Source: Meloidogyne chitwoodi (lineage: Eukaryota; Nematoda; Chromadorea; Rhabditida; Meloidogynidae). From it: a DNA stretch of 64,000 nucleotides. The notes beneath the pieces were generated by a model. It saw nothing but the letters and a program-made list of their open reading frames with translations. It did not search any database and was not told where the DNA came from. Made by a program: the position numbers and the translations under genes. Of the stretch, positions 8,601 to 31,832 are shown one piece after another. The DNA is taken from positions 1,674,001-1,738,000 of the forward strand of contig JACZZP010000006.1 in assembly GCA_015183035.1 (NCBI GenBank). The letters run 5' to 3'. Every line of letters begins with the position of its first letter. Position 1 is the first letter of the stretch.

Positions 8601-9126
8601 TTTGTCTAAAAAATGTATTTAATGTTTTAAATTAAGTACTTAATTTTAATTTTAAAAAGTTTGAAATTTTTCTTCAATTCATTTCACTTTAACTATTCAA
8701 CATAATGAATGTATTTAATCATTGATATTCTAATAATAAATGCATTAACCTAAATTATTATCTATAACAAAGTTATTTCGATCTGGAACAAACAAAATAA
8801 CTAATCTTTACCCAACTACATTAATCTATTTTTAATATTCGATATTCTGAATAAATCAAATCTCATTAATATATTAAATCTTTTAGACTATTAACAACTA
8901 AAATAATATTTTATTTACAAAATTTAGTTCTTATTACTTTGAAACTTATTAAGCTTTGATAAATATTTGTTACATTAACTAAAAGCTATAACTTATAAAA
9001 TCTAAATCAAAAATTAATCCTACTAAGGACGAAAATTTTATAAAGCGCATACTTTAAAGCAAAATTAATTAAGAGGGTCTAATTTTTTGCTACTTAAAAA
9101 AAAAAAAAAATTAAGTTAATTTTAGT
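5691..9126 (+). other. Noncoding 5' internal region of the LTR element
   Basis: About 3.4 kb without an ORF worth reporting. It holds a slightly GC-richer patch at 6170-6290, possibly an untranslated exon after TTTTTCAG, and two copies of a GGCTTAGGCTWAC-like word (about 6598 and 8271) that recurs at 30876 just before gag. It ends in an A-run at 9097-9110 next to the Maverick. Confidence 0.4.
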
Positions 9127-9515
9127 AGTAGTTAGCCCCCAGATTTCCGCACAAAGGGATGCCGCCAACCTATTGAGGGGTTTTGGGGGAGGGGTCCGAA
9201 AAAATCTATGGGTGTAAGGGGTTTTTAGCGGCTTTTCGTTTGATGTTCCAATTAGTCGCAAGGGATTTGACATGAGTTCTTTCATCTTTGCCGCCAGATA
9301 CTAATTGCTCAATTAGTACCTACTAATTGGTTACCTTTCATCTTTGCCGCCAGACTCAAATGTACTAATTGCCCAATTAGTACCTACTAATTGGTTACCT
9401 TTGATTTTTTCCACAATTTGTAAAGGTGTTAATTGAGTCTGATGAAGATTTGTACCAATTAAGTGTTAAGTTTAAAGTAATAATTCTAATTGATCAATTT
9501 GTACCTATTGATATT
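9127..9515 (+). repeat. Left terminal inverted repeat of the Maverick
   Basis: The outer 136 bp match the right TIR almost perfectly; similarity then continues with many differences to about 9515. The left copy carries a tandem duplication of a roughly 65-bp unit (about 9288-9414) containing TTGCCGCCAGA and CTACTAATTGGTTACCTT, present once in the right TIR. The inner part is rich in AATTAGT/ACTAATT words. Confidence 0.85.
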
Positions 9516-12816: not shown

Positions 12817-12847
12817 TAAATTAATCCAATAATTATTAATATTCAAA

Positions 12848-13504
12848 ATGGAAGCGTTAACATTTTCAAATAAAGATTTAAAATTTAAATTGCCTTTTGG
12901 TATGATTGTATCGGGTCCTAGTTCTAGTGGAAAGAGTACATTTCTTTTAAAATTTATTTCTGAATCAGCAGAGTTAATTGAACCCAAACCAAAGATTATA
13001 CTTTACTGTTTCGGGGAAATGAGTAATATTGTTCCAATACTTCAAAAATCCGGAGTTAACGTCTTTGTCGGTGTACCTAATGAAGATTTATTAAAAACTC
13101 TCCCAAAACCCTTTCTCCTAATTCTTGATGATTTATTACTTTCAATTGATGAAAAATATTTGTCTGAACTTTTTACTAAAAAATCACATCATCAAAACTT
13201 TGGTGTTATTTTTGTTACACAAAATTTGTTCGATAAAAAAATTAAAGTCGCCCGACAAAATGCCCAATATATTATTTTAATGCGGTCCCCAAATTCTGCT
13301 CTTGCAATAAGAAATATAGGCGTACAACTTTTTCCTGGAAAACTAGATTATTTCCTTGATTCTTACAGACAAGCTACTAACCAACCCTACGGATATCTAT
13401 TAATCGATATGCATGCTTCATCTGAACCTAGTTTACGACTGAGGACGGGGATATTTAAGGAAGATGAAGAAAGGGTAGTCTTTACTCCAAAAAGTGGAAT
13501 TTAA
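12848..13504 (+). CDS. Polinton packaging ATPase (FtsK/HerA, A32-like)
   Basis: 218 residues, intact. Walker A is GPSSSGKST at about residues 22-30, preceded by hydrophobic FGMIVS; Walker B is LLILDDLLL at about 92-100, and the Gln of FVTQN (about residue 126) fits the sensor position. This is the size and layout of the A32-like DNA-packaging ATPases of Polintons and adintoviruses, which drive the genome into the capsid. Neighbours are other virion genes on the same strand. The stop is separated from the next ATG by a single base, so the two may share a transcript. Confidence 0.9.
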   Translation: MEALTFSNKDLKFKLPFGMIVSGPSSSGKSTFLLKFISESAELIEPKPKIILYCFGEMSNIVPILQKSGVNVFVGVPNEDLLKTLPKPFLLILDDLLLSIDEKYLSELFTKKSHHQNFGVIFVTQNLFDKKIKVARQNAQYIILMRSPNSALAIRNIGVQLFPGKLDYFLDSYRQATNQPYGYLLIDMHASSEPSLRLRTGIFKEDEERVVFTPKSGI

Positions 13505-15116: not shown

Positions 15117-16194
15117 ATGGAAGATTATACAAAACTTTTACAAAATCTCTATAATAATCCAGAGTCGCCTGCAGCATTTTCAGGTGTAGATAGATTATGG
15201 CTTGAGGCACGCAAAACTCAAAACATTTACCTCGTAAATTAGTTCAGGATTTTCTTGAGGGACACCGAACTTACACTCTTATGCGTCCCAAGAGAATACA
15301 TTTTACTAGAAGTAAAACAGTAGCAGCTGGATTTATGACAGATGTCCAAGTAGACTTGGCAGATTTCCAAAGCTTAGCTAGACATAATAAAGGAAATAGA
15401 TATTTATTATTGGGAATTGATGTTTTATCTAAACAAGTTTTTGGAGTACCAGTCAAATCTAAGAAAGGTGAAGATATGCCTGATGCATTCCAAAAATTAC
15501 TTGATCAAATGCCTATGAAACCACATAGAATATTTTCTGATAAAGGATTAGAATTTAAAAACCGTCAATTAAAAGAATTTTTTGGAAAAGAAGAAATTGA
15601 GAAATTTGAGGCCACTCATTCAATTGTCAAGGCTTCACTTGCAGAACGTGCAATTCGAAATATTAAACAAAGATTATATCGATACTTTGCACATTATAAA
15701 AACCTTAATTGGACTGATATTTTACCAAAAATTTTGGAAGGAATAATAAGGCTAAATGTCGTGTTCATGGAATGAGACCTATTGATGTAAATTTTAAAAA
15801 TGCCCAAAAAGTCTGGAAGAAAATATATGGTGAAACAAAAACTAGAAAGTCAAAACCTAAATTCAAAAAGGGTGATTTTGTTAGAATGAGTATAAATAAA
15901 ACTAACTTTGAAAAAGGATATATCCCAAACTGGGGTGATGTAATAGCTGAAGTTGACAAAGTCAAAGACCAATCGCGTCCTATAAGATACAAAATTAAAG
16001 ATTCCAAGGGAGAAAAGTATAAGGGATCGTTTTACAACGAAGAGTTATCTAGAGTTAAAAAAGACGCCGATACAGAATACAGAATTGAGAAGATTTATCA
16101 AAAAAGAAAAAGATCAGATGGTACATTTGAAGTTCTTGTAAAATTTATAGGATATCCCGAAAGGGAATGGATTCATGAGAATCAACTTGTATAA
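15117..16194 (+). pseudogene. Maverick integrase with C-terminal chromodomain, two frameshifts
   Basis: Retroviral-type DDE integrase in three reading frames. The N-terminus (from ATG 15117, SPAAFSGVDRLWLEA) runs into a stop after a shift near 15215-15235. The catalytic core lies in a second frame (to about 15745) with the acidic triad in DVQVDLADF, FSDKGLEF and LAERAIRN. After another shift near 15740-15750 the C-terminal part continues, with a KFKKGDFVRM SH3-like stretch and a chromodomain (YRIEKIYQKRK...VLVKFIGYP...W). All family landmarks are otherwise present. The enzyme normally inserts the element; this copy cannot encode it as one frame unless the shifts are sequencing errors or are bypassed. 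Confidence 0.85.
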
Positions 16195-16245
16195 AAGCTC
16201 AAATATTCATTTTATTGTATCATTTTTATAATTGTCATATAAAAA

Positions 16246-17648
16246 ATGTCAAATAGTTTTTACGTTTGTTTACTAAGTAATACAACTGATTACCCCGATA
16301 ATCAACCTAATAAATTTCGATTTCATCTTCCAAAACCAATTTACTTTTCGGGTGATTGGGTTTGTGGTTTGCACAGTATTTCATATCCTTATTCTTGGCA
16401 CTCGACAATAGGTACTTTAGATGAACAATGGATCGATATTTACTGTACTGATAATAAAATTGAACAAGTTATTCATGTGCCTGTTCCAAGAGGTTCCCAC
16501 AATAAACCCCAAGATTTGGAAAGTTTTTTAATCTCAACGTTGAAACATCAAAGTGGAGCACTAGAAGCAAAATCTCTTGATGAAGGATTTGTACAAAAAC
16601 CTGTCGTAATTTCACCACCAAGGCCTGACCGTTCAAAACGTGAAATAAAATCTTCAGAAGCAAAACTTCCATCTCCTCCAAAAGTTCGAGAACTTGGTTC
16701 TCCTCCACTTTGGTTGATCCTAAGAAAAAAGAAGTACCAAAACAATCCTCTATACCATCACCTCCTACAACAAATCTCCAAAAATCCCCCCATCAAAATA
16801 CTTTAAACACTCAAAAACCTCCAACTCCTCCAACCTCAACACCTAAGCCTCCTCAGCAAAAATCATCAACACCTCAAAAATCTAACCCTACACCACCTCC
16901 TCCACCGCCTCCTCCTGCACCATCTCAAACATTATCACAAAAACCTTCTCCCTCTATTCAAATACCTTCACTTCCAACAATACCTAAACCTTCTGCTCTA
17001 ACTCAAGCCTTACCTTCACTTCCATCCCCTCCAAAGAAGGAAAGAAAGGAAAATAGTACACAAACACCAAGTGTGTTAGACGTTATGGGATTATCTAGAA
17101 GGGAAAAAGGTGAAAAACAAGATGTTTTTGATGTATTATTTGGAAAGAACAAAAATAGTAAAGCTGAATTTAGTCTTGAAGAGTTAAAACATATTATTAA
17201 TTCAATATCTCTATACTTTCATCATGATTTTAAACGTTTCAAACTGGAATTTTCACACGATTATATAAAATATTTGTCTTTCTCTCCTCAACTTGGTTAT
17301 GTACTAGGTTTTGAAAATTCAAAGATGGTAATGAATAATGAGACAGCAAAATACGGAAGTGATTTACGAGGAGGATTCTCAAGTTTTGCTGTTTATTCAA
17401 AAGGATTAACAGAGAACATGATTGTCGGCAATTCTCTAAGTTCTCTATTGAGAGTTGTCTCTGTGTCCGGAACTCCTGGAGAATATCAAGAGAAAATTTA
17501 CGACTCCCCAATCTATATTCGAGTGCTTCCAAAAGAAATTAATGAGATTGAGATAGAGTTAAGAACGATGGATGGAGGAAGACTTGTACCTTTTGCATTC
17601 GGTACAGTCATGATTGTATTAATATTTAAAAAAGTTATAAACTTCTAA
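16246..17648 (+). pseudogene. Penton-like minor capsid protein, one frameshift in Pro-rich linker
   Basis: The N-terminal part (16246 to about 16705) contains NKFRFHLPKPIYFSGDW and GLHSISYPYSW, the recognisable start of Polinton minor capsid proteins. A one-base shift at about 16700-16712 moves the frame to an ORF that continues to 17648, whose C-terminal half has YGSDLRGGFSSFAVYS, LLRVVSVSG and IYIRVLPKEINEIEIELR, the conserved end of the family. Between them is an unusually long Pro/Ser/Thr-rich linker of about 150 residues, including a run of nine prolines. The family forms the pentameric vertex, a single jelly roll. The shift lies in low-complexity sequence. Confidence 0.8.
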
Positions 17649-17668
17649 TTTTCATATGATACCTTGCC

Positions 17669-17677
17669 TATATAAAT
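17669..17677 (+). promoter_or_regulatory. TATA box before the pVI-like gene
   Basis: TATATAAAT in the 74-bp gap after the minor capsid stop, 45 bp before the next ATG. Best TATA match in the cluster. Confidence 0.5.
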
Positions 17678-17722
17678 ACTCTTGTTATTATTTTATTTCA
17701 TTTTATTTTGTGAATAAAAAAA

Positions 17723-18181
17723 ATGGTTCATATAATTTTTGATACTAGAACAGTTGGGTATGAAGAATTTATTCCTATGATGAAAGGAAATGGTATTTCT
17801 GATGAATATTTTAAGGGTTCATCACCTTATCAAAGGGGATATGGCTCCCAAAAAGGTGCAGGAATTGGTGATGTTATGCGTGGCCTATGGCGTTTCTTCC
17901 TACCAATCATCAAGCAAGCTGGTACTACTGTAGCAGGCGAAGCATTAAATACAGGACAAAGAGTATTAGAGAGAGTAAATCAAGGAGAATCAATTAAGAC
18001 TGCACTTAGAGAAGAAGGGAAGAAAGGAATAGATACTGTACTTGACAAAGGAGGATTGCCTAAACAGTTTGGTACTGGTCGTAAAAAGAGTATAAAAAGA
18101 CATGCATTACCTTCATATCAAACACTTATTGGTAAAAAAGTTAAAAAAAGATTAAGATCGGACGCCTTTGGACTTTATTAA
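17723..18181 (+). CDS. pVI-like internal virion protein
   Basis: 152 residues, intact. N-terminal YFKGSSPYQRGYG is followed by GAGIGDVMRGLWRFFLPIIK, a Gly-rich amphipathic or membrane-active segment, and a long helix (AGEALNTGQRVLERVNQGES) with a basic tail (KKSIKRHALPS). The order Gly-Tyr head, amphipathic helix and basic tail is shared by pVI-like proteins of Polintons and adintoviruses, which lie inside the capsid and help membrane penetration. Only five bases separate its stop from the capsid-protein ATG. Confidence 0.65.
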   Translation: MVHIIFDTRTVGYEEFIPMMKGNGISDEYFKGSSPYQRGYGSQKGAGIGDVMRGLWRFFLPIIKQAGTTVAGEALNTGQRVLERVNQGESIKTALREEGKKGIDTVLDKGGLPKQFGTGRKKSIKRHALPSYQTLIGKKVKKRLRSDAFGLY

Positions 18182-18186
18182 TAAAA

Positions 18187-18534
18187 ATGGCTTTTCACAA
18201 AATTGACAGTGAAAGTATAAATTCAATTACAAGTGCTCTTGATTTTTTTCAAATTCCCCCTACTAATGTTACAGTATCTTCATCTAAAGTTTTTGAAATT
18301 CTTCCCAGTAATCCTCTTACTGATACTCCTTACCACTTTAAAATTCATTCAAGTCAAAATTATATTGATTTGACAAAATGTTATCTTTTTACCGAATTTC
18401 GAATTAGAAAAGAGAATGAGAATGGGCATTTAGTAAATATTTCATCAACGGATAATGTAGCACCTATTCAACTTATAGGACAAACTTTTGGGTACACCTC
18501 AACTGAGTCTGCACGACTGAGTCTGCTCAACTGA
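18187..18534 (+). pseudogene. Major capsid protein, N-terminal fragment only
   Basis: 115 codons. About 100 match the start of the Polinton double-jelly-roll capsid protein: SALDFFQIPPTNVTV, YHFKIHSSQNYIDLT, YLFTEFRIRKE, then VAPIQLIGQTF, where the first barrel should continue. After about 18488 the frame enters a short tandem repeat (ACTGAGTC words) and stops. Full-length family members are several hundred residues longer, and no continuation is found on the far side of the MULE insertion at 20.4-20.9 kb. The truncation therefore removes most of both jelly rolls, and this copy cannot make a capsid. Confidence 0.8.
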
Positions 18535-18628
18535 GTCTGCACGACTGAGTCTTGGCACAACTGAGTCTGGCTCAACTGAGTCTGCACAACTGAGTCCCCG
18601 TTGTAAATACCTCAACTGAGTCCCAGAA
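18496..18628 (+). repeat. ACTGAGTC short tandem array
   Basis: Nine copies of ACTGAGTC spaced 13-24 bp, mostly in the form CTCAACTGAGTCTGCACG. It lies exactly at the broken edge of the capsid gene and is probably the subterminal repeat of the inserted MULE. Confidence 0.75.
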
Positions 18629-18822
18629 ATTTAATTTTATTTTTCTTCCGGTGGAAATGTTCAGAAAGCATATGATACTTCTGTAGTACCTCGAGTACCA
18701 AATACCAAAATTAAAACAATTAAGATTTGTAAAACTTTATTATAATTCATAAAAATGGAATAACGAGATCAAAAAAGTAACAAAAAAGATTAAGTAACAA
18801 AAAAGATTGAAAGTATTTTCTA

Positions 18823-20370
18823 TGACTCCATATTATAGTTGTGTGAGATTCCTTTTAAGAAATCAATAATTATTTGAGGATTTGGATGCATCTGATAATA
18901 ATGATCATTGTGTGGATTTGCTGGTTGGTAATCTTGGACTAATGCAAGAATCCTCATATCCGCATCCCTATACTTCTTTCTCTTCAACGGTGGATCCCTT
19001 CCTTGTTGACAAAGTGCAAAGTCGGCATCGATCAACTTTTGCTCCCTTTTTAAAGTTTCAATGAAACGCCATATATCTGCATGCGCACAACTAAATGCTC
19101 TCTGAAGTTTCTTATTGGCCGCTTCACTATAGTTGTTAGTGCGATCGCCTCCATGAAGAACCCTCTGGTGAACACTCCAAATTGTAGGGTCAAATCTCGG
19201 TCTGTTCCTTGCCCCATCTATTCTTAGGCGCCCTGTGTAATTTGTAATAAACCTGGAAAATATTTGACAAATATGAAAGGCGTAATTAAAAGTACCAATC
19301 CAACACAGGTTGTAATTCTGGTGATAGATGGTCCTCCAAGACGATGATTGCCGGGGTGATGTCACAAATTGGCAAAAAGGAAATTGATGTTATCATTTTG
19401 GCTTCCAAAGCCAATAAAGGATCATTTTTGTAACGCTAAATCTTGAAATTGTAGTTTTATATTAAATTGAAACCTGCATTAGACCCTCATTACTGACTGC
19501 CTTCTTAAGATTCCTAACCAAATGAAACAAGCATCCAGCAATTTCTGCATTCGGGAAAATTTCTTGAACCGCACCTATGATAGCAGCCTCATAATCCATT
19601 GAAAAAATGCGAGGATTGAAATGCGGCCAAACATCTTTTAGAAGTTAAAAAAACGAAAATATGTAGCCTTCGTTTTCGTTGTTAAAAGGCCGTATGCCAC
19701 AGGAAATACCCACTTTCTACGTCTAAATAAAAGAAACCAAAATAAAAGTTAAAAAGTTAAACCTGGCTAACACGCAAAAGATCTGGTAAAATAAGGGCGG
19801 TGTAACACTAAAACTGCCGTCAACGTATATTTGCTCCATCTCTGCTGCCCAATCACCCGAAGACATACGCCCAAATATAAGAATTCTTTAATTAAAAATT
19901 TACGTTGTTATAATCGTTGTTTAACCGTTGTTGTCCCGCATTCTCAACATATACACCAGAATCTGCTAACAAGAATTGCTCTTGAAGTTCGCCTGTACGA
20001 TTATATTGACGATAAGCTTCTGGAATTTGAAGTTCGGCAATATTTTGGGGAACTGCAGGATAGGCCGCATTTTCTCTGCGAACGCGTTGAACCAACTGAT
20101 AGGAGAAAAATATGTAAAAAAAAGAATTAAAAAAGAATACCAAATTTGTTGCCTTTTTCGACGGAAGTTGTGACAAAACAGGCGTTGCTACATTCTCCAT
20201 TGCCATTGCTCTGATCTGAGATGGGGCTTCCATCGTCACATTTGCCCTTCGTTTAATTCCTGTCACAATCTTTTGTACTTCTATAGTTGTTGCATTTGTG
20301 TCGCAAATATGAACATTAAACTCCTTCAGGAAGCCATTGTTTATGTCATTGTGAATCCTTCACTCATTGA
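18823..20370 (-). CDS. MULE transposase, N-terminus missing
   Basis: Several minus-strand exons give the core of a FLYWCH-type MULE transposase. About 20200-20345 encodes VHICDTNATT...GIKRRANV and the segment before the catalytic core; 19800-19860 has MEQIYVDGSFSVTPPLFYQI (first Asp of the DDE set); 19680-19720 has RRKWVFPVAYGLL; 19505-19610 has FSMDYEAAIIGAVQEIFPNA and AGCLFHLVRNLKK (second Asp, then CxxH). The region 19400 down to 18823 covers the rest, with TIWSVHQRVLHGGDRTNNYSE, where the third acidic residue lies. The FLYWCH zinc finger and start codon upstream of 20370 are not found. Stop at 18823-18825. Most splice phases join well. Confidence 0.75.
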
Positions 20371-20418
20371 AATAAATTTATTTAGAAAATAGTAATAAAA
20401 ATTTGGCGTCTTTTGATT

Positions 20419-20735
20419 TAAATGTCAGATGACAGATGGCAAAGGATTTGAGGTAAACAAGATAATAAAATAAATTAAAAATTCTAATGACCTTGAAAAG
20501 TGTCGGTAAGTCTTTTGATCTTTAATTAAAATATTAAACATCTGGCGACAGATTGTATAGTAATAAAAATATTTTGAGGAAAACAAGGTAATAATCTAAT
20601 TAAAAATTCTAATGAAATTGAAAAGTGTCGGCAAGCTTTGATCTTTAAAATGGAAATTAAACATCTAGAGACAGATGGTAAAATGTTTTTGAGGAAAAAC
20701 AAAGTAATAAACTAATTAAAAATTCTAAGCGTGCT
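20419..20735 (+). repeat. Three-copy tandem repeat, about 110 bp per unit
   Basis: Three imperfect units, each containing an ACAGATTG/ACAGATGG word, TTTGAGGWAAACAARRTAAT, TAATTAAAAATTCTAA, then GAAAAGTGTCGG and a GATCTTTAA. The third unit loses its end. Noncoding; at the right edge of the MULE segment. Confidence 0.7.
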
Positions 20736-20842
20736 AGGGTAATAAAACAATACTGAATAAAATTCAAATTTTTATTCATTATAAAGTCCCGCGCAAACAA
20801 ATCTTGAAAACCTCTTCGATTTTTCTTATTTACCATTATTAG

Positions 20843-20853
20843 TATATATAATA
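20843..20853 (+). promoter_or_regulatory. TATA box before the polymerase gene
   Basis: TATATATAATA lies 63 bp before the ATG at 20917, in a stretch with little else. Confidence 0.45.
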
Positions 20854-20916
20854 CCGGATTCTGTATAATTTCGTCATTTGCAATTTTTTTAGTAAAATTT
20901 TGTAATTTAAGTTAAT

Positions 20917-23900
20917 ATGGATAATAATCCTCCACCGAGAAAACGTACTCGATTCACTATTGAAAGTCTCCTTGGGCTTCAATCTATTTTTTCCATCACT
21001 AATTTACTTGGTCTTCAAGATGGAGCTGGTTCTTCTTCTTCAAAACAACCTAAGGATTATGTTGATCAACTTGAATCAACAATTGAGGAAAACAAAAAAT
21101 TCAAGTTCTTAAAGTGTCGATCAAAATTTATGATAAAAGATCTACCTGCGGATCCTGAAGAACTTCTAAGCAGTAAGTTAAAAATTTTTTCTAAAAATAA
21201 AATTTATAGGAATTTTCCAATACTTCTTAAACGAAGCTGTAGAGGCTAGTGTTAATCGAGGCTTGAAAGCTGAACATATAGGTTGCATCATTAGTAGCGC
21301 AATCTTGGATCATGATGTATGGATTCCCGTGAGGTTGGTTTTGTTTGTGACAATCTTTACTAAAATTTCGATTTTTCAGAGATAGAAATGAGAATACGGT
21401 TGACGCTATACTCAACCGTTTTCTTTTGGTTGCTCAAAGTTTTCGTCAGAAGGATGTTTCACTTTTTGGACAACCTTTCACAGTGACAGCAACAGTTGTT
21501 GATAAGAATGCTCTACCTAAACAACATAAATTACCTGGTTCAGGGAATCGGAAAATGGCTCCTGTTCGTCACCGAATTAATGAGAGAGCTCTGATTAAGG
21601 CCAGTTTATCAAGTTTTAAAACAAAATGATAAAATTAAGTTTGGGGATTTAAAAGGAAATATCAATAATATAAAAATCTTTAGATTGATAAAAGTAAAAT
21701 GGGCTTTAAAATTTAATAATAGATAGGAATAAATAATAATAAAAGTTCAAAAATAAAATTTTAATTTTAGATTCAAAATAACAACGATACTTACTGTCTC
21801 TTTTACGCTTTGGTAGCAACTCTTATTCACACGGTGTTCAATTGGCATTGGGAAAAGTTTTCGCGCTATATTAAAAGTCAACATGGTATGGCAAATAAAT
21901 TCAAGGAAGATACGCTGGAATTGATGGAAAGTATTGGAGCTCCTAGAAATCTAAACTCTTACAATGCTGAAGAATGGATCCCTCTTGTTGTTAACTATTG
22001 GAACAACAAGTATTCTGGAAAGAATATCTTCAAAGTCTACGTCTTTGGATCTCTTGGTTACTATGAACCGGAATTTAAAAGTGGTCCTGATAATTTCGAC
22101 ACGCCAATTATTCTATACTACAAAAATCAACACTTTGATGGCGTGAAAAAGACAGGTGGATTATTTGGACAACCCTATTGTCTACATTGTGAAAAGGTGT
22201 ACGAAAGAGACGCTCAACATAATTCCTTGTGTAAAGCCAGATGCATTAAATGCTCACGAGTTGGACCAAGCTTCCCTTGCAAAGTTGTTGAAGGCTTCTA
22301 CAAATTATGTGAAATGTGTAATAAAATATTTTACAACAACAACTGCTACCAATACCATCTCAAGTGTAGCTTCTGCAACATCTCAAAGGAATGTGAAAAA
22401 TGTGGAGTTGTGTGGAACATGAAATATGTTTCAAAGAAAGGAAGAAAAGGGCACGTATGCGGAGAAAAACATTGTAGTAGATGTGGGGATTACCATGATC
22501 CTGAGAGAGGATGTTTCATCAAACCTCTAGAGCTTAAAACTGTTAAGAAGTATAGATTTATTGCCTTCGATCTGGAAACAACACAATATCTTCCTTCTGA
22601 TACCGGAAAGAAGCACGAGGCAAATTTCATCTGTGCTAAGGTTACATGCCCAGAATGTATTTTAGAGGTAAATTTAAATTTTATAATTAATAATTAAAAT
22701 TATTTAGGAAAGTGAATGTCAAGTTTGTGGTGAAAATAGAATTTTAACTTTTTCACATCATCCATTTACAACAACAACTGTTGATAAAATGTTTATTAGC
22801 CCAAAACCCTTAGAAGCTTTTGTCGATTGGATAATTAATGGTCTGCCTCAAGAACATGATACTATAGCTTTTTCTCACTTTGGCGGAAGATTTGACATGG
22901 TACTTGTATTCAAAGAATTGTTTCTCAAAGGTAATAATTTTAAAAAAATTTTTATTAATTAAAAATTAAGGTTATACTCCTGAAATGTTAAAAAGAGGCA
23001 ACAAAATGTACGAAATGAAGATAACATCCCGAGGACCTAAGAAAGGAAGTATTATCTTTAGAGACTCCTTCAATCTGATGCCTATGTCCCTTGCATCACT
23101 GGTTCCAGCATTTGGACTTCAAGTTGAGGATAAACCATATTTTCCTCACCTGGCAAACCATCCTCGCAATTATGGGAAAGAAATTCATCCTACAAAGTCC
23201 GACTACCTGGCTGATGGAATGCTTCCAGAAAAAAGAAAACAATTTGATTTGTGGTACGAACAACATCATATGGAACCCTTCAATCTTACTGAAGCTCTTG
23301 CTTCATATTGCACGAATGATGTTGAAATTTTAATGGCCGGACTTATTGCTTTTCGCAAAGAATTTATGGAGGTTAAAATTGTTAAAATTTAATAATTTAA
23401 AAATATTTTAGGTTTCAATGAGAGGAAATGAAGGCATTGACGTCCTACGTGAATCAATGACCATTGCCAGCGCATGCATGCGCCACTTCAGAACCAATCA
23501 TCTGAAGGCAGAACATGTCGGCATCGTTCCAGAACGTGGATATGACAACAAAAATAATCAAAGCTTATTAGCTTTGAAATTTTTGGAATGGTATGCTGAA
23601 GAATATGATGTAATTATTCAACATGCCAACTCACAGGATGGAGAAAAAAGGTAAAAGTTTTATTATTATAATATAATTAATAAAATTTTTAAAAGGGTTG
23701 GGAATTATCGATTAGATGGATGGGTAGAACAACAACAACTTGCAATAGAAGTAAATGGGTGTTGTTGGCATGGATGTATTAAATGCTACCCAAACGACAA
23801 TATTGTTCTTCCTTCTGGAAAAACTGCTGGACGTCAACGACAGTTGGACAAGAAGAGACTTGATTTTATCAAGTCTCAGATTCAGGACATCAAAATATAT

Positions 23901-25698
23901 TGGGAATGTGAGATTAAAGAAATGTTAAAGAAGGATAAAGAAATGAAGAAAAAGTTTGAAGAATATCTCGACAACGGTCCTATCGACATTCGATCAGCAT
24001 TCTATGGAGGCAGAACAGGTCCACTAAAATTATTCCATTCTGCTAAGCCTGGTGAAAGAATAAGTTATTATGATGTCACCAGCCTCTACCCATATATTAA
24101 TGTTACAACAAGTACCCAACTGGCCATCCTATCGTCCATATTCTCAATCAAGATGTACTTTGGTCAAGTTCTAATGATAATAAATTTGAGCTGGCTATTC
24201 TTAAGGTAATAATAAAAATTTTTCAAAAATATTTTAATTTTTAAAGGTTTTTGTGATCCCACCCAAGAGAATTGATGTGCCAGTCTTACCTGTCAAATCA
24301 AATGATAGGCTTTTATTCCCATTATGCATCACTTGCGCGTATGATTAATCATAATTTTTAAAATATTTTAAAAAAATTTTTAGAAGAGAAAATCCTGAAG
24401 GAGGTGTGGAAGAAAATTATAGATGCACACACGAAGATCAACAACGTGGCTGGGTTAGTACTTGCACGTCAATGGAACTGAACGCAGCGCTTGATGAGGG
24501 CTACTATGTAACGAAGCTCTTCAGAGTGCTCGAATATATAACATCAGATGAAAATTTATTCCGGCCCTACATTGCAGAATTTATGGCCCAGAAGATTCAC
24601 TCTTCTGGTTTTGACAACTCGATCAAAGGAAATTTAGAATCTGAAGAACAATTTATCCACGAATGTGCGGATAAATTTGATATAATAATTGATCGAAATA
24701 AAATGGTAAATTAAAAAAAAATTTTTAATAAAATAAATAATTTTGTTTTAGGTGCCGAATAAAGGGAAGCGTACACAAGCACACAAGCTAAACTGTGTTT
24801 GAATAATCTATGTAAGTTTTTTTTTTTACTTAATAATTATTATTAATTTTATAATAAATTTAGGGGGGCGATTCTCGTTGAGAAATTTTGGATTAAGTCA
24901 AACAACAATAACGGACAGACCTGCAACATGGAGGAAAATTATTGATGATTCAAGTAAGGAAGTTTCTTCTGTAGATGAGTTGACTCGTGATATAATCCTC
25001 ATCTCTCACCTGATTAAAAAAGATTGGGTAGAGGAACATGAATGTTCGAATGTTGGTATGTTTTTAATTAATTATAATTAGCATTAATATAAAATTCTTT
25101 AGTTATTTCTTTATGGACGACCTCTATGGCACGACTTCACTTATTGAAGGCAATGCAACAAGTTGTCAGGACTCCTGGATGTACACTTTTGTACACAGGT
25201 AAATTTAAAAAAATTTTTATTTAACTAAAATTAATTTTAGATACTGATTCTCTCATCTTTGCACACCCTTCAGAAAGGTGCCCTCTTGAACTTGGGCCTC
25301 ATCTTGGACAGTTTACGGATGAATATCCGCAGCACTTCATCAAGGAGTACTGCTCTGGTGGCGCAAAACAATATGGTTTGATGCTTAAACGGAAGATGTC
25401 ACCAGAAGCAGATGCGGAATTCATCTTAAAACTGAGAGGAATAACGTTGAACTGGAATGTGGTTGTCAATCAGGAATTGCAGTATGAAAAATTTAAAGAA
25501 AAAGTTTTTTATTTTATTAATAATAATGGATATTGTCCCCCACTTAATCTTAATTATCCCAACTTTCTTCGCCCTTCTGTAAAAAAAGGTTCTGTTGTTA
25601 CCCAACCTTTAAATAAAATGTATCGACCCTTTGTAGGTAAAGGAATTGTTCGTCCAAGTGATTCTATTGTATTAGATTTTGGTTTTAATTATTTATAA
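20917..25698 (+). pseudogene. Protein-primed family-B DNA polymerase of the Maverick, broken frame
   Basis: About 14 short exons. Approximate exons: 20917-21172, 21210-21333, 21380 to about 21610, 21772-22666, 22709-22931, 22972-23370, 23413-23651, 23696-24206, 24247-24340, 24382-24704, 24752-24811, 24865-25055, 25103-25199, 25240-25698. Landmarks: NDTYCLFYAL (N-terminal Polinton-specific region), paired Cys clusters at 22180-22490, FDLETTQ (ExoI), SHFGGRFDM (ExoII), YCTNDVEILM (ExoIII), an inserted endonuclease-like EVNGCCWHGC, YYDVTSLYPY (motif A), a KLCLNNLWGR-like motif B, TDSLIF (motif C) and GGAKQYG. Breaks: a one-base shift after motif A near 24108, and an 8-bp near-tandem insertion (ACACAAGC-like) around 24776-24790 that leads to a stop at the start of motif B. 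The junction near 21600 also does not join in phase. The family replicates the element from protein-primed ends. Confidence 0.85.
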
Positions 25699-25864: not shown

Positions 25865-26404
25865 TTACCATCCTTCTATTTCATCAAAATCATCTTCAAA
25901 AATTAGTGGATCATCCATATCCTTATCAGACTCAGAAGTTGTTTTATCACTATTAAGTTTGTCCGAAACTTCAACATATAGTGGTTTATCATCCTTAGAT
26001 ACAGGAAAACTAATGTAATCTTCCACATTTTCATCTACAAACTCCAAAAGTTCCAAAGGGTAAAATCGATCCTCACATCGACGTGGAAATTGTTCAATTA
26101 CACACTGTAAATACGGGTATTGTAGACGAATTCTATGCCGGGAATAAAAATGCGCTGCTACTGAAACATTGAAAGGTCGAGATAAAGCACCATATGCCAT
26201 GATAGAATGAGCTCCCTTATGGGTAAAATCAGAAATGATAAAAGTTTTGCGGAATCCATTCCGATCAGAATACAGAGTACGTACTTTTCTTCCTTTAAGT
26301 TTTGAAATTAGAAGTGAGCGTTTTGAAGGATGATTTAAATGATCACGCAAGGAGTTTGGTCGACATTTGAGAATTTTGGTACACTCGTCGATTAGATATA
26401 ACAT
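25865..26404 (-). CDS. Stand-alone PAZ-domain protein carried by the Maverick
   Basis: A single intact exon of 179 residues. Residues 1-125 follow an Argonaute PAZ domain from end to end: a leading helix (IDECTKIL), LISKLKGRKVRTLYSD (family pattern LkGlkV), KTFIISDFT, then FNVSVAAHFYSRHRI (pattern tVaxYFxxxY), RLQYPYLQC (LkYPxLPC, with Gln for Pro) and RFYPLELLEF (ylPlEl). Aromatics F86, Y87, Y96, Y98 and Y115 are where the 3'-end-binding pocket is built in this family. Residues 126-179 are an acidic tail (EDDFDEIEGW end). No N, MID or PIWI domain is present, so slicing is impossible. It has its own TATA box and a paired-box promoter. Probable role (inference): binds small-RNA 3' ends and blocks host silencing. 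The intact frame among broken neighbours is notable. Confidence 0.8.
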   Translation of the reverse strand: MLYLIDECTKILKCRPNSLRDHLNHPSKRSLLISKLKGRKVRTLYSDRNGFRKTFIISDFTHKGAHSIMAYGALSRPFNVSVAAHFYSRHRIRLQYPYLQCVIEQFPRRCEDRFYPLELLEFVDENVEDYISFPVSKDDKPLYVEVSDKLNSDKTTSESDKDMDDPLIFEDDFDEIEGW

Positions 26405-26442: not shown

Positions 26443-26451
26443 CCTTTTATA
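26443..26451 (-). promoter_or_regulatory. TATA box of the PAZ gene
   Basis: Reads TATAAAAGG on the minus strand, 38 bp before the ATG at 26404. It is the most canonical TATA box in the element. Confidence 0.55.
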
Positions 26452-29369: not shown

Positions 29370-29731
29370 TTTAAACTTAAGCCCTTAATTGTTACTAATT
29401 GACCAATTAGAATTTTTTAATAATTTGTCACCTAAACCCTTAAGTTTAATTAAGTACAAATCTTCCTCAGACTCAAGTAGCACCTTTCAAATTTCGGCAA
29501 AAATCAAAGGTAACCAATTTGTAGGTAATAATTGGGCAATTAACACCTTTGAGTCCGTCGGCAAGATGAAAGAACTCAAGTCAATACCCTTCGCGACTAA
29601 TTGGAACATCAAACGAAAAGCCGCTAAAAACCCCTTACACCCATAGATTTTTTCGGACCCCTCCCCCAAAACCCCTCAATAGGTTGGCGGCATCCCTTTG
29701 TGCGGAAATCTGGGGGCTAACTACTAATTTT
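29370..29731 (-). repeat. Right terminal inverted repeat of the Maverick
   Basis: Inverted copy of 9127-9515. The outer 136 bp are nearly identical; the inner part has many substitutions and lacks the left copy's 65-bp duplication. Ends CTGGGGGCTAACTACTA at 29731. Confidence 0.85.
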
Positions 29732-30926
29732 TGTATTTATAGTAAAGTTATTCCATCAACGCGCTTTAAAACAATATTCAATTGTTAATAGAATAAAATT
29801 GTAAAGCACTAGTAATCTATTGTGATAACTTATCAATAATTTCAGAATTTCTTCAAAATTCTTATTTCATTCATTTCTCTTAGTAGAGCTGTCTCAAAAA
29901 AAAAAAAAAAAAAATTTTTTAATTATTAAATTGAAAAAGTTTAAATTCATTTTTATTCTCATTTTAGCGCCGCATGCGAAAATTTTTAATGAATATGAAT
30001 AATCCACTTTAGTGCAAAATCCGCCTTTTTAGTGCTGTATTCAAAAAAAAAATTTTTTATGTTGTAACCCTTTTCCCAGAAATACCTTTTTAAGCCGCAG
30101 GAAAAATTTAAGGCTTTTAACTCTTATAAATAATTTCAAAACGAAATTAAAATACATCAAGAAATTAAAATACATTCCAACGGTATTAATGTAGACAAAA
30201 ATGCTAAATAATATTATTTAGGTACTCGCCAAGAAAATTCTTAATTTTTGCAAAATAAATTATCGAAAAAAATCTCTAAAATTAGTTAAAGTTCGAGACA
30301 GCTCTGCTCTTAATTGTAAACAATCGGTTAATTTTCATTCTTAAATTCTTGTCTATTGTTACACTATTGCAAATTATTGCCTGTCAGTAGATACAAATTG
30401 AAAAATAATATAGAATTGCCGCAAAAGCAAAGCATCGCAATTTTAGGAGAGACATTTCGGGTTCAATACATTCTCAGATTTTACTACTTTCTAAATTGAA
30501 ATTTTCAGAAGTATTCTCTTATCAATTTTTGTTAACTGAACGCATGTTTTCTTATTTAATAATTCTTTAATTATTTCGGATTTATTTCTTTAAATTTTGC
30601 TCCTTCGGTTGATGAAATCTTTATGAGGCTCACAAGATCTATCTTTATTATTTTTTCAAATTTGTTTAATTCGAATTAAAAATAAAATTATTGAATCTAC
30701 GCTAATTAAAAATCATTTTAATTTTTTCTCTACATTTTAAGTAATATCTAATCAATTTCAAACTTTCTAACTAAAATAATTTTTGCAAAATAGGTTGAAA
30801 TATTATTTTAAAATAGATAATTAAATATTTAAGGTTCGACTACTGCGTCAATTCACTGTTTGATAGCACTTCAATAGGCTTAGGCTTACTTAAGGAAATA
30901 TAGTCTTTTGTATTTAGTATATAAGG
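29732..30926 (+). other. LTR-element internal sequence before gag
   Basis: Continuation of the LTR-element interior after the Maverick. It has an A-run at 29898-29914, a CTGTCTC word pair (29890, and its complement GAGACAGC at about 30296) and a GGCTTAGGCTTACTT word at about 30878, 50 bp before gag. No ORF is supported. Confidence 0.4.
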
Positions 30927-31832
30927 ATGAAAAATCACAAAGATAGTGGCGTTCAGAGTTCAAATAAGAATCGTACTACACGTCTTGAATTAAATATGCT
31001 GGGTTCTGGTGAATCTAGTTCCTTTGGATCACGTCTTGAAACATTCTCAAGTGAAACAGCGTCGGCATTTGATGATTGGACCATAAGATTTCTTGATTAT
31101 GTTGCTGTTTTTGGTGCAGACTGGTCAGAAGTAAATAAGATAAATCGTCTTAAATTGTATCTAGATACTAGAACACGGCAAATATTTGAAAAACTGTTAC
31201 CAAATGAAAAGGATACTTTAACAACTGCATTGAAAAGCATCAGAACAAAATTAAACAGCCCTCATCTTAGGGAACTGGCTTATAAAAGACTAGCGTGCTG
31301 TTACCAAAGGAAAGAAGAAACCGTTAGTGAATTCATTAAAAGGTTAGTCCCTTTAGTAAATACAACATCATCAGATATCTCAGTAGAAGCAAGAGAAGAA
31401 ATATTGTGTCGATGTTTCGCAGAAAAATTAAGGCCCGAATTTCAAAGGGCACTTCAAGTAGTTGGCCCATTAATAGGTCGAAAGGACTTCAGAAAGCTAA
31501 CAACTTATGTCCAAGAGCTTGAACTTACTGAGGTACGAAACGACAATGAAGGTATACAAGCAATCTCGGATCATTCTAGAAACAAAAGTACATTGTCAAA
31601 TACAAGTCCATATTGCATGGCTTGTCATCAAATAGGTCACACAATGTATAACTGTAGGATCAACAACGAAAATGATTATGTTTGCTTTTCCAACAATGAT
31701 GAAGGGCAATATGATTCAAAGGAGAGAGAAATTCAGGAAATGAAGGAAATGATTGAGAATTTAGCATTACAGGTGCATGAAATGAAAATGAATGCAAATT
31801 ATGCCTCGACTAGCAAAGATAATCCAAACTAG
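30927..31832 (+). CDS. Retrotransposon Gag with CCHC zinc knuckle
   Basis: 301 residues, intact, ATG at 30927. Residues about 45-215 fit a retrotransposon gag capsid-like domain: FDDWTIRFLDYVAVFGADW, INRLKLYLDTRTRQIFEKL, YKRLACCYQRKEETVSEFIKR and LRPEFQRAL. A zinc knuckle follows at about 230-243 (CMACHQIGHTMYNC, spacing CX2CX4HX4C). The end is an acidic coiled-coil-like helix (EREIQEMKEMIENLALQ). Gag packages element RNA. No pol frame overlaps or follows it before the 3' LTR, so reverse transcriptase must come from elsewhere. A Ty3/Gypsy-type origin is likely, not certain. Confidence 0.85.
   Translation: MKNHKDSGVQSSNKNRTTRLELNMLGSGESSSFGSRLETFSSETASAFDDWTIRFLDYVAVFGADWSEVNKINRLKLYLDTRTRQIFEKLLPNEKDTLTTALKSIRTKLNSPHLRELAYKRLACCYQRKEETVSEFIKRLVPLVNTTSSDISVEAREEILCRCFAEKLRPEFQRALQVVGPLIGRKDFRKLTTYVQELELTEVRNDNEGIQAISDHSRNKSTLSNTSPYCMACHQIGHTMYNCRINNENDYVCFSNNDEGQYDSKEREIQEMKEMIENLALQVHEMKMNANYASTSKDNPN

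Follow-up and report, generated by a model that had tools for sequence, protein, structure and literature searches.

A Maverick element with a PAZ gene next to its polymerase

The window, that is the whole 64,000-nucleotide stretch of Meloidogyne chitwoodi DNA analysed here (contig JACZZP010000006.1, positions 1,674,001 to 1,738,000), contains a Maverick/Polinton element of 20.6 kb at positions 9124-29725. The element is bounded by terminal inverted repeats, a left arm of 139 nt on the plus strand (9126-9264) and a right arm on the minus strand (29588-29726), which are complementary at 99%, and AATTTT flanks it on both sides (9118-9123 and 29726-29731), which was taken to be a 6-bp target duplication. 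Family B DNA polymerase (polB), integrase and packaging ATPase were all recognised in the element by Pfam, each below its curated cut-off (DNA_pol_B_2, E=1.1e-5; rve, E=2.5e-5; Pox_A32, E=3.2e-4). The ATPase gene (12833-13504, plus strand) is Pox_A32/Adeno_IVa2-like. The integrase gene (15206-16194, plus strand) is split over two frames and contains the rve core and a chromodomain match (E=0.057), while the polB gene (20917-25698, plus strand) is interrupted by nine short GT..AG introns and by at least one further frame change outside them. For the part of polB from 20917 to 21770 the assignment was visual, based on its resemblance to the beginning of the frame in a related Maverick, L078.

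When the ORFs in 16243-18534 were searched for a double jelly-roll capsid, none matched a Pfam or PHROG profile at E<=0.1. In the 18480-20917 region, a putative capsid frame, which stops early, ends in a short CTGAGTCTGCACGA-type repeat. The minus-strand ORFs that follow it possibly belong to an inserted element; one of them (18820-19389) gave no Pfam match at E<=0.01. Just beyond the Maverick, at 30918-31829, a 304-residue ORF matched PNMA (gag-like) under cut-off. A nematode host would agree with the collagen-like frames that the window also contains and with ten SL1 RNA-like matches, every one under the Rfam gathering score.

The last recognised gene ahead of the right repeat lies on the minus strand and converges on polB. 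Its frame (25865-26404) is uninterrupted from ATG to stop over 179 codons and has no intron. The original prediction of an intact, intronless gene of 179 residues inside a Polinton was thus borne out by the open frame, the repeats and the flanks. The same prediction had pointed to a canonical TATA box, and a TATAAAAGG box was indeed found at 26443-26451 on the minus strand, 47 nt 5' of the ATG, as the sole copy in the element when both strands are counted. A TATA-like TAT[AT][AT]AA was present in 19 of 22 distinct upstream stretches of related PAZ genes, compared with 25% per sequence in shuffles, an enrichment which is weak because these stretches are AT-rich and related to each other (genes with damaged starts, L036, L037, L048, L049 and L060, were left out of the count).

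Identity of the encoded domain

PAZ is known as one module of larger machines, the Argonautes and Dicers. Residues 32-125 of the window protein matched the Pfam PAZ profile (PF02170) with E=2.6e-6 and 27.9 bits, which for the protein taken alone is 0.9 bit short of the curated cut-off of 28.8 bits. As a single sequence the protein matched an AGO2 PAZ chain in the PDB with E=0.004. Support from its relatives, which fall into three groups (A, B and C), was broader: a PAZ match at E<=0.1 was obtained for all 11 members of the family alignment (groups A and B; best 5.1e-9) and for both group C members tested. At E<=1, a profile built from the 11 members found 27 different PDB sequences; every one was an Argonaute, and the best was AGO2 PAZ (E=2.3e-6). 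In a profile-profile comparison with five Argonaute PAZ sequences (hhalign) the family reached 98.3% probability. The PDB match of the family profile begins at residue 4, indicating that the N-terminal helix (about residues 4-31) corresponds to the last part of the L1 linker of Argonautes. Dicer, considered as donor of the PAZ segment, is unsupported, all 27 PDB matches being Argonautes.

The gene limits are about those of solved PAZ constructs. Human AGO1 and AGO2 PAZ chains (8thq, 1r4k, 1si2) have the same L1 end helix and PAZ domain within near-equal construct limits; unlike an Argonaute PAZ, the Maverick gene stands alone, without MID or PIWI, carries an additional tail and has several pocket residues changed. 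The tail of the window protein comprises 56 residues, has a net charge of -15 and ends in Glu-Gly-Trp. The earlier description of the gene as only a PAZ domain and an acidic tail therefore stood for these two parts, and has to be amended for the L1 end helix from about residue 4. The predicted lack of MID and PIWI was confirmed, as the frame stops after the tail and the nearest PIWI match to any of 33 group A/B places in the genome was 37.8 kb away (measured from 20 of 38 PIWI matches, at least one per cluster). Single-sequence AlphaFold2 models of the window sequence (pLDDT 35 and 41) were too poor for a fold search.

Introns and damage in the polymerase gene

The core neighbours of the PAZ gene had been described as broken, in contrast to the PAZ gene itself. 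For polB this view was not upheld: the gene is largely interrupted by introns rather than simply broken. Its nine GT..AG introns are 40-52 nt long with 7% GC, and a sister copy on contig C28 (L079) has GT..AG at all nine places. Gaps aside, the two copies are 95.3% identical at exon sites and 92.2% at intron sites, and 10 of the 12 internal indels between them fall within introns. A relative on contig C30 has polB open across 1333 codons in the 4-kb stretch read. Genuine damage is also present in the window element, namely the frame change outside the polB introns, about 65 residues of the relative that have no counterpart at the first intron, the integrase in two frames and the early-stopping putative capsid frame. 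The nine AT-rich introns (22668-25240) are found in the window element and L079 and are absent from L078; they represent either a gain in a mobile-element gene or a loss elsewhere.

Copies in the genome and linkage to polB

The genome to which the window belongs (47.5 Mb) was searched for the PAZ family and gave 36 matches. The three weakest, two of them group C places and the third a host Argonaute exon, were set aside, leaving 33 places. A counted polB place lay within 5 kb of 32 of the 33. In 28 of these 32 the PAZ gene and the nearest polB were convergent, and in four they were on the same strand. Conversely, PAZ was found within 5 kb at 32 of 36 counted polB places (at least 42% identity), that is at 27 of 28 places with at least 57% identity and at five of eight with 42-46%, where chance would account for at most 0.7% of the genome. 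This count used 36 of 53 polB matches; dropped were seven second pieces of the same places, nine matches with an identity of 31-41%, and a match of 29 residues at 72% identity (C26:558236, with no PAZ within 40 kb).

Related ATPase places (at least 61% identity) had PAZ within 20 kb in 23 of 39 cases and lacked it in 16. Fourteen of these 16 were also without a counted polB within 20 kb, one of them with the short uncounted polB match nearby; the two others (C11:1015799 and C9:1570927) had polB and no PAZ. ATPase places lacking PAZ mostly lack polB, and PAZ thus travels with polB. Within the 20 kb examined, 14 of the 39 ATPase places look like element halves without the polB-PAZ end. These observations show that a Maverick lineage carries a free-standing, intronless Argonaute-type L1-PAZ gene beside polB, usually in convergent orientation. 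They also fit a replication role, in which the PAZ fold would have been re-used as a single-strand or 3'-end binder in the protein-primed DNA replication of the element; the linkage to polB, and its joint absence with PAZ at ATPase places, count in favour of such a role and to that extent against a decoy in small-RNA silencing.

Without two secondary truncated frames on C6, we counted 26 distinct proteins, 17 in group A, five in group B and four in group C. Some places are near-identical and some are on small contigs, so that they may be haplotypes or recent copies; L038 and L042, for instance, are 99.9% identical over 2.5 kb, and the L038-L042 proteins are identical. Pairs of truncated, overlapping genes occur at two C6 loci. 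The group C genes (L057-L060, on contigs C2, C28, C1 and C25) encode 103-168 residues, with a longer, L1-like N-terminus. They lie 6.7-8.6 kb from the ATPase of more distant Mavericks, on the same strand in three cases and on the opposite strand in C2; these ATPases are 45-46% identical, and the C2 match is broken (79 residues). No ends of these distant elements were located. One family gene, L050 (G000:C25:897376-897837), has no polB match within 40 kb and represents either a deleted element or a copy kept by the host. At L048/L049 (G000:C6) the polB-PAZ end is duplicated; the two ends face each other and enclose two overlapping PAZ genes, both truncated. A different type of short PAZ-like frame, with a MYFPPEICE motif, was seen at L062, L063 and L064 (C25:530607, C11:462069 and C11:624827); no Maverick polB or ATPase match lies within 40 kb of them and no PIWI match was found on those contigs.

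Outside this genome, no relative was confirmed in IMG/VR with the PAZ alignment, the ATPase or a polB piece, the ATPase and polB queries being single sequences, which find close relatives only. The phage records searched gave no match.

The PAZ family is under purifying selection

Out of 21 pairs compared, six close and mutually independent ones were chosen for a pooled test, and each gave an omega between 0.07 and 0.25. Together they showed 41.5 nonsynonymous and 65.5 synonymous differences, where the substitution spectrum of the flanks predicts a nonsynonymous share of 76%; the omega-like ratio is 0.20 (P=3e-16). The pairs not used comprise distant (saturated) ones, L052/L054, which overlaps a pair of the pooled set, and L031/L037, L045/L048 and L058/L059, with omega values of 1.26 (12 changes), 0.44 and 0.55 (6 changes), respectively; the N-termini of L037 and L048 are disrupted. 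Leaving out the close C28 copy, group A frames have stayed open, with proteins 42-56% identical to that of the window. The PAZ protein changes more quickly than the products of the neighbouring genes: in group A, polB matches are about 57-70% and ATPase matches about 74-81% identical to the window. Purifying selection has thus maintained the family over a divergence of the elements that has brought polB identity down to about 45%, and neutral decay of the orthologues, raised beforehand as a possible outcome, was not what we found within this genome.

Damaged copies exist (L048/L049; L060; L036, which lacks an in-frame ATG; L037), and Mavericks are known to take up host genes (PMC10680173). These observations would be expected of a passenger, a host Argonaute exon acquired by chance and left to drift; for single copies, a ratio near 1, such as that of L031/L037, would speak for it. 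For the family as a whole this reading is refuted by copy number, selection and conserved position (33 places, 26 distinct proteins), and we consider a passenger very improbable. The 33 places, the linkage to polB and the omega-like ratio all indicate a long-kept gene and not a stray fragment.

Relation to host Argonautes

The best host Argonaute match to the window protein, on contig C28, was only 32% identical, which argues against the gene being a copy of a neighbouring Argonaute. The C28 Argonaute has in common with group A a His in place of Tyr311 (AGO2 numbering) and a similar FYPLEL motif. In a phylogenetic tree the Maverick PAZ rows were split from the Argonaute PAZ rows with support of 92/99, which is under the star level of the tool. 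The tree was built without short or damaged rows (H_C4, H_C8, H_C12, H_C25x, H_C11x and MAV_L048), and the remaining host rows were short, with 43% (H_C28), 46% (H_C5) and 49% (H_C27) of columns filled and a very long branch for H_C27. The phylogeny that had been proposed as a way to the donor thus separated Maverick from Argonaute sequences, and it pointed to no donor Argonaute.

Groups A and B clearly form one family. Group C matched A/B and Argonaute PAZ alike (96.4% each), so that a single capture for all groups is unproven; one old capture is the simplest reading, and a separate capture of group C is possible.

The low identity to host genes also bears on another kind of weapon, in which a captured piece yields small RNAs against the gene of its donor Argonaute. 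A precedent is the mechanism proposed for TART-A, which captured part of nxf2 (PMC7785250). At 32% identity in protein a useful nucleotide match would be unlikely, and selection acts at the protein level; we regard this mechanism as extremely improbable.

Pocket residues, charge and tails

We compared the positions of the 3'-end binding pocket in 14 Maverick rows (nine of group A and five of groups B/C), using AGO2 numbering. His316 was retained in all 14 rows and Arg315 in 11, the others having one Lys and two His. Position 311 was His in all nine group A rows and Tyr in all five group B/C rows; position 338 was Phe, Tyr or His; Tyr279 was altered in every row (Phe, Leu, Ile or Val); and His271 was replaced by Tyr in eight of nine group A rows. 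Phe294 aligned, with uncertainty, to Ala or Ser, and a conserved aromatic residue stands one position away in groups A and B (AYG/SYG/AFG). The terminal nucleotide is held in AGO2 by contacts with F294 and Y311, and ZSWIM8, another protein, can occupy the vacated PAZ pocket (PMC13083262). The Arg315/His316 pair of AGO2 is reported to give lower 3'-end affinity than the Lys/Tyr of its paralogues (PMC10643408), and in Dicer-like 3 proteins a PAZ swap alone alters end preference (PMC9071481). These altered positions suggest that 3'-end binding may be weak or changed; judged from the aligned residues, binding by the Maverick PAZ is plausible and not assured.

The changed pocket, and the differences between the tails of the groups (those of group B have two to three Trp), would also suit a PAZ scaffold that has lost RNA-end binding and instead binds proteins during virion assembly, transcription or recruitment of host factors. 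However, of the 16 columns that are invariant in the 11-row alignment, 13 fall within the PAZ part (residues 43-119), including the His316 equivalent, and we consider such a role rather improbable.

The core of the group A proteins has a net charge of +7 to +12 and that of the group B proteins one of +4 to +8, compared with +5 for human AGO2 and +6 for a canonical host Argonaute. In group A the core has a pI of about 9-10 and the tail a pI of 4.1-5.1, with a net tail charge of -3 to -15. Trp is exactly the last residue in all 17 distinct group A proteins, although the preceding tail is variable, and several subgroups end in Gly-Trp. In group B the tails range from roughly neutral to basic (-1 to +4) and none of their Trp residues is exactly terminal; the C-termini of L050-L055 have in common a GI(L/V)W(L/M)...WxK motif. 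Group C has almost no tail.

Bacterial and phage single-strand binding proteins have an acidic tail with a C-terminal aromatic residue that binds the polymerase. E. coli SSB and T7 gp2.5 resemble the group A proteins in their basic nucleic-acid core, their acidic, aromatic-ended tail and the DNA polymerase nearby. By analogy, in a replication role the basic core would sit on displaced strands or 3' ends, and the acidic tail with its terminal aromatic would be a putative contact to the polymerase. Against this, the Maverick protein is homologous to PAZ, no single-strand binding protein was among the PDB matches at E<=1, the acidic terminal-aromatic tail is missing from groups B and C, and the PAZ domains known to us act at RNA ends.

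A possible role against silencing

The putative function that we favour, to which we would give a little less than an even chance, is that of a decoy for small RNAs or Argonautes. The L1-PAZ segment would have been taken from an Argonaute gene by an ancestor of the element. The resulting basic, soluble PAZ, free of MID and PIWI, would bind small RNAs at their 3' ends, or else 2-nt overhangs of the Dicer type; alternatively, the acidic tail with its terminal Trp (Gly-Trp in several subgroups) would dock on Argonaute partners. Either way, small RNAs directed at the element would be loaded or used less. There are two precedents: a plant viral suppressor, SPMMV P1, binds Argonaute through WG/GW motifs (PMC2904775), and TART-A has captured a piece of nxf2 (PMC7785250). 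The Maverick proteins resemble SPMMV P1 in their Trp-bearing tail with a Gly-Trp end in several subgroups, which makes Argonaute docking possible; they differ from it in having one terminal Trp joined to a PAZ domain, and docking is putative. A single Trp is a minimal Argonaute hook.

Other points count against a decoy: the pocket is changed in group A, and the terminal Trp is fixed only in that group. An Argonaute hook would explain the Gly-Trp end, and an acidic tip like that of single-strand binding proteins would explain why Trp is always last. A replication role accounts for the tail and for the position next to polB roughly as well as a decoy does; taken as a whole we judge it unlikely, though the most serious alternative. 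The protein may help the element either to escape RNA silencing or to copy its DNA.

In its wider form, the favoured reading is that a virus-like transposon lineage has made an Argonaute PAZ into an independent anti-silencing protein. Its gene would be the first to encode a PAZ by itself and would have stayed next to polB across deep Maverick divergence; this we put forward tentatively, as somewhat less than probable. Among the matches listed in CC-licensed PMC full texts, there was no PAZ gene in a Maverick and no PAZ-only protein, and the main text of PMC11071308 mentions neither PAZ nor Argonaute. Other nematode Mavericks with cargo (wosp proteases, krma kinases and a putative fusogen; PMC10680173) have likewise acquired host genes. 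In contrast to those cargoes, the gene described here is an Argonaute fragment that stands beside polB at 32 of 36 counted places.

The PAZ gene provides a marker for this Maverick lineage. If the favoured reading is true, it would show mobile virus-like elements turning a part of the silencing machinery against silencing; if the replication role is, it would show an RNA-end binder becoming a DNA replication factor. Both readings can be addressed with one small protein.
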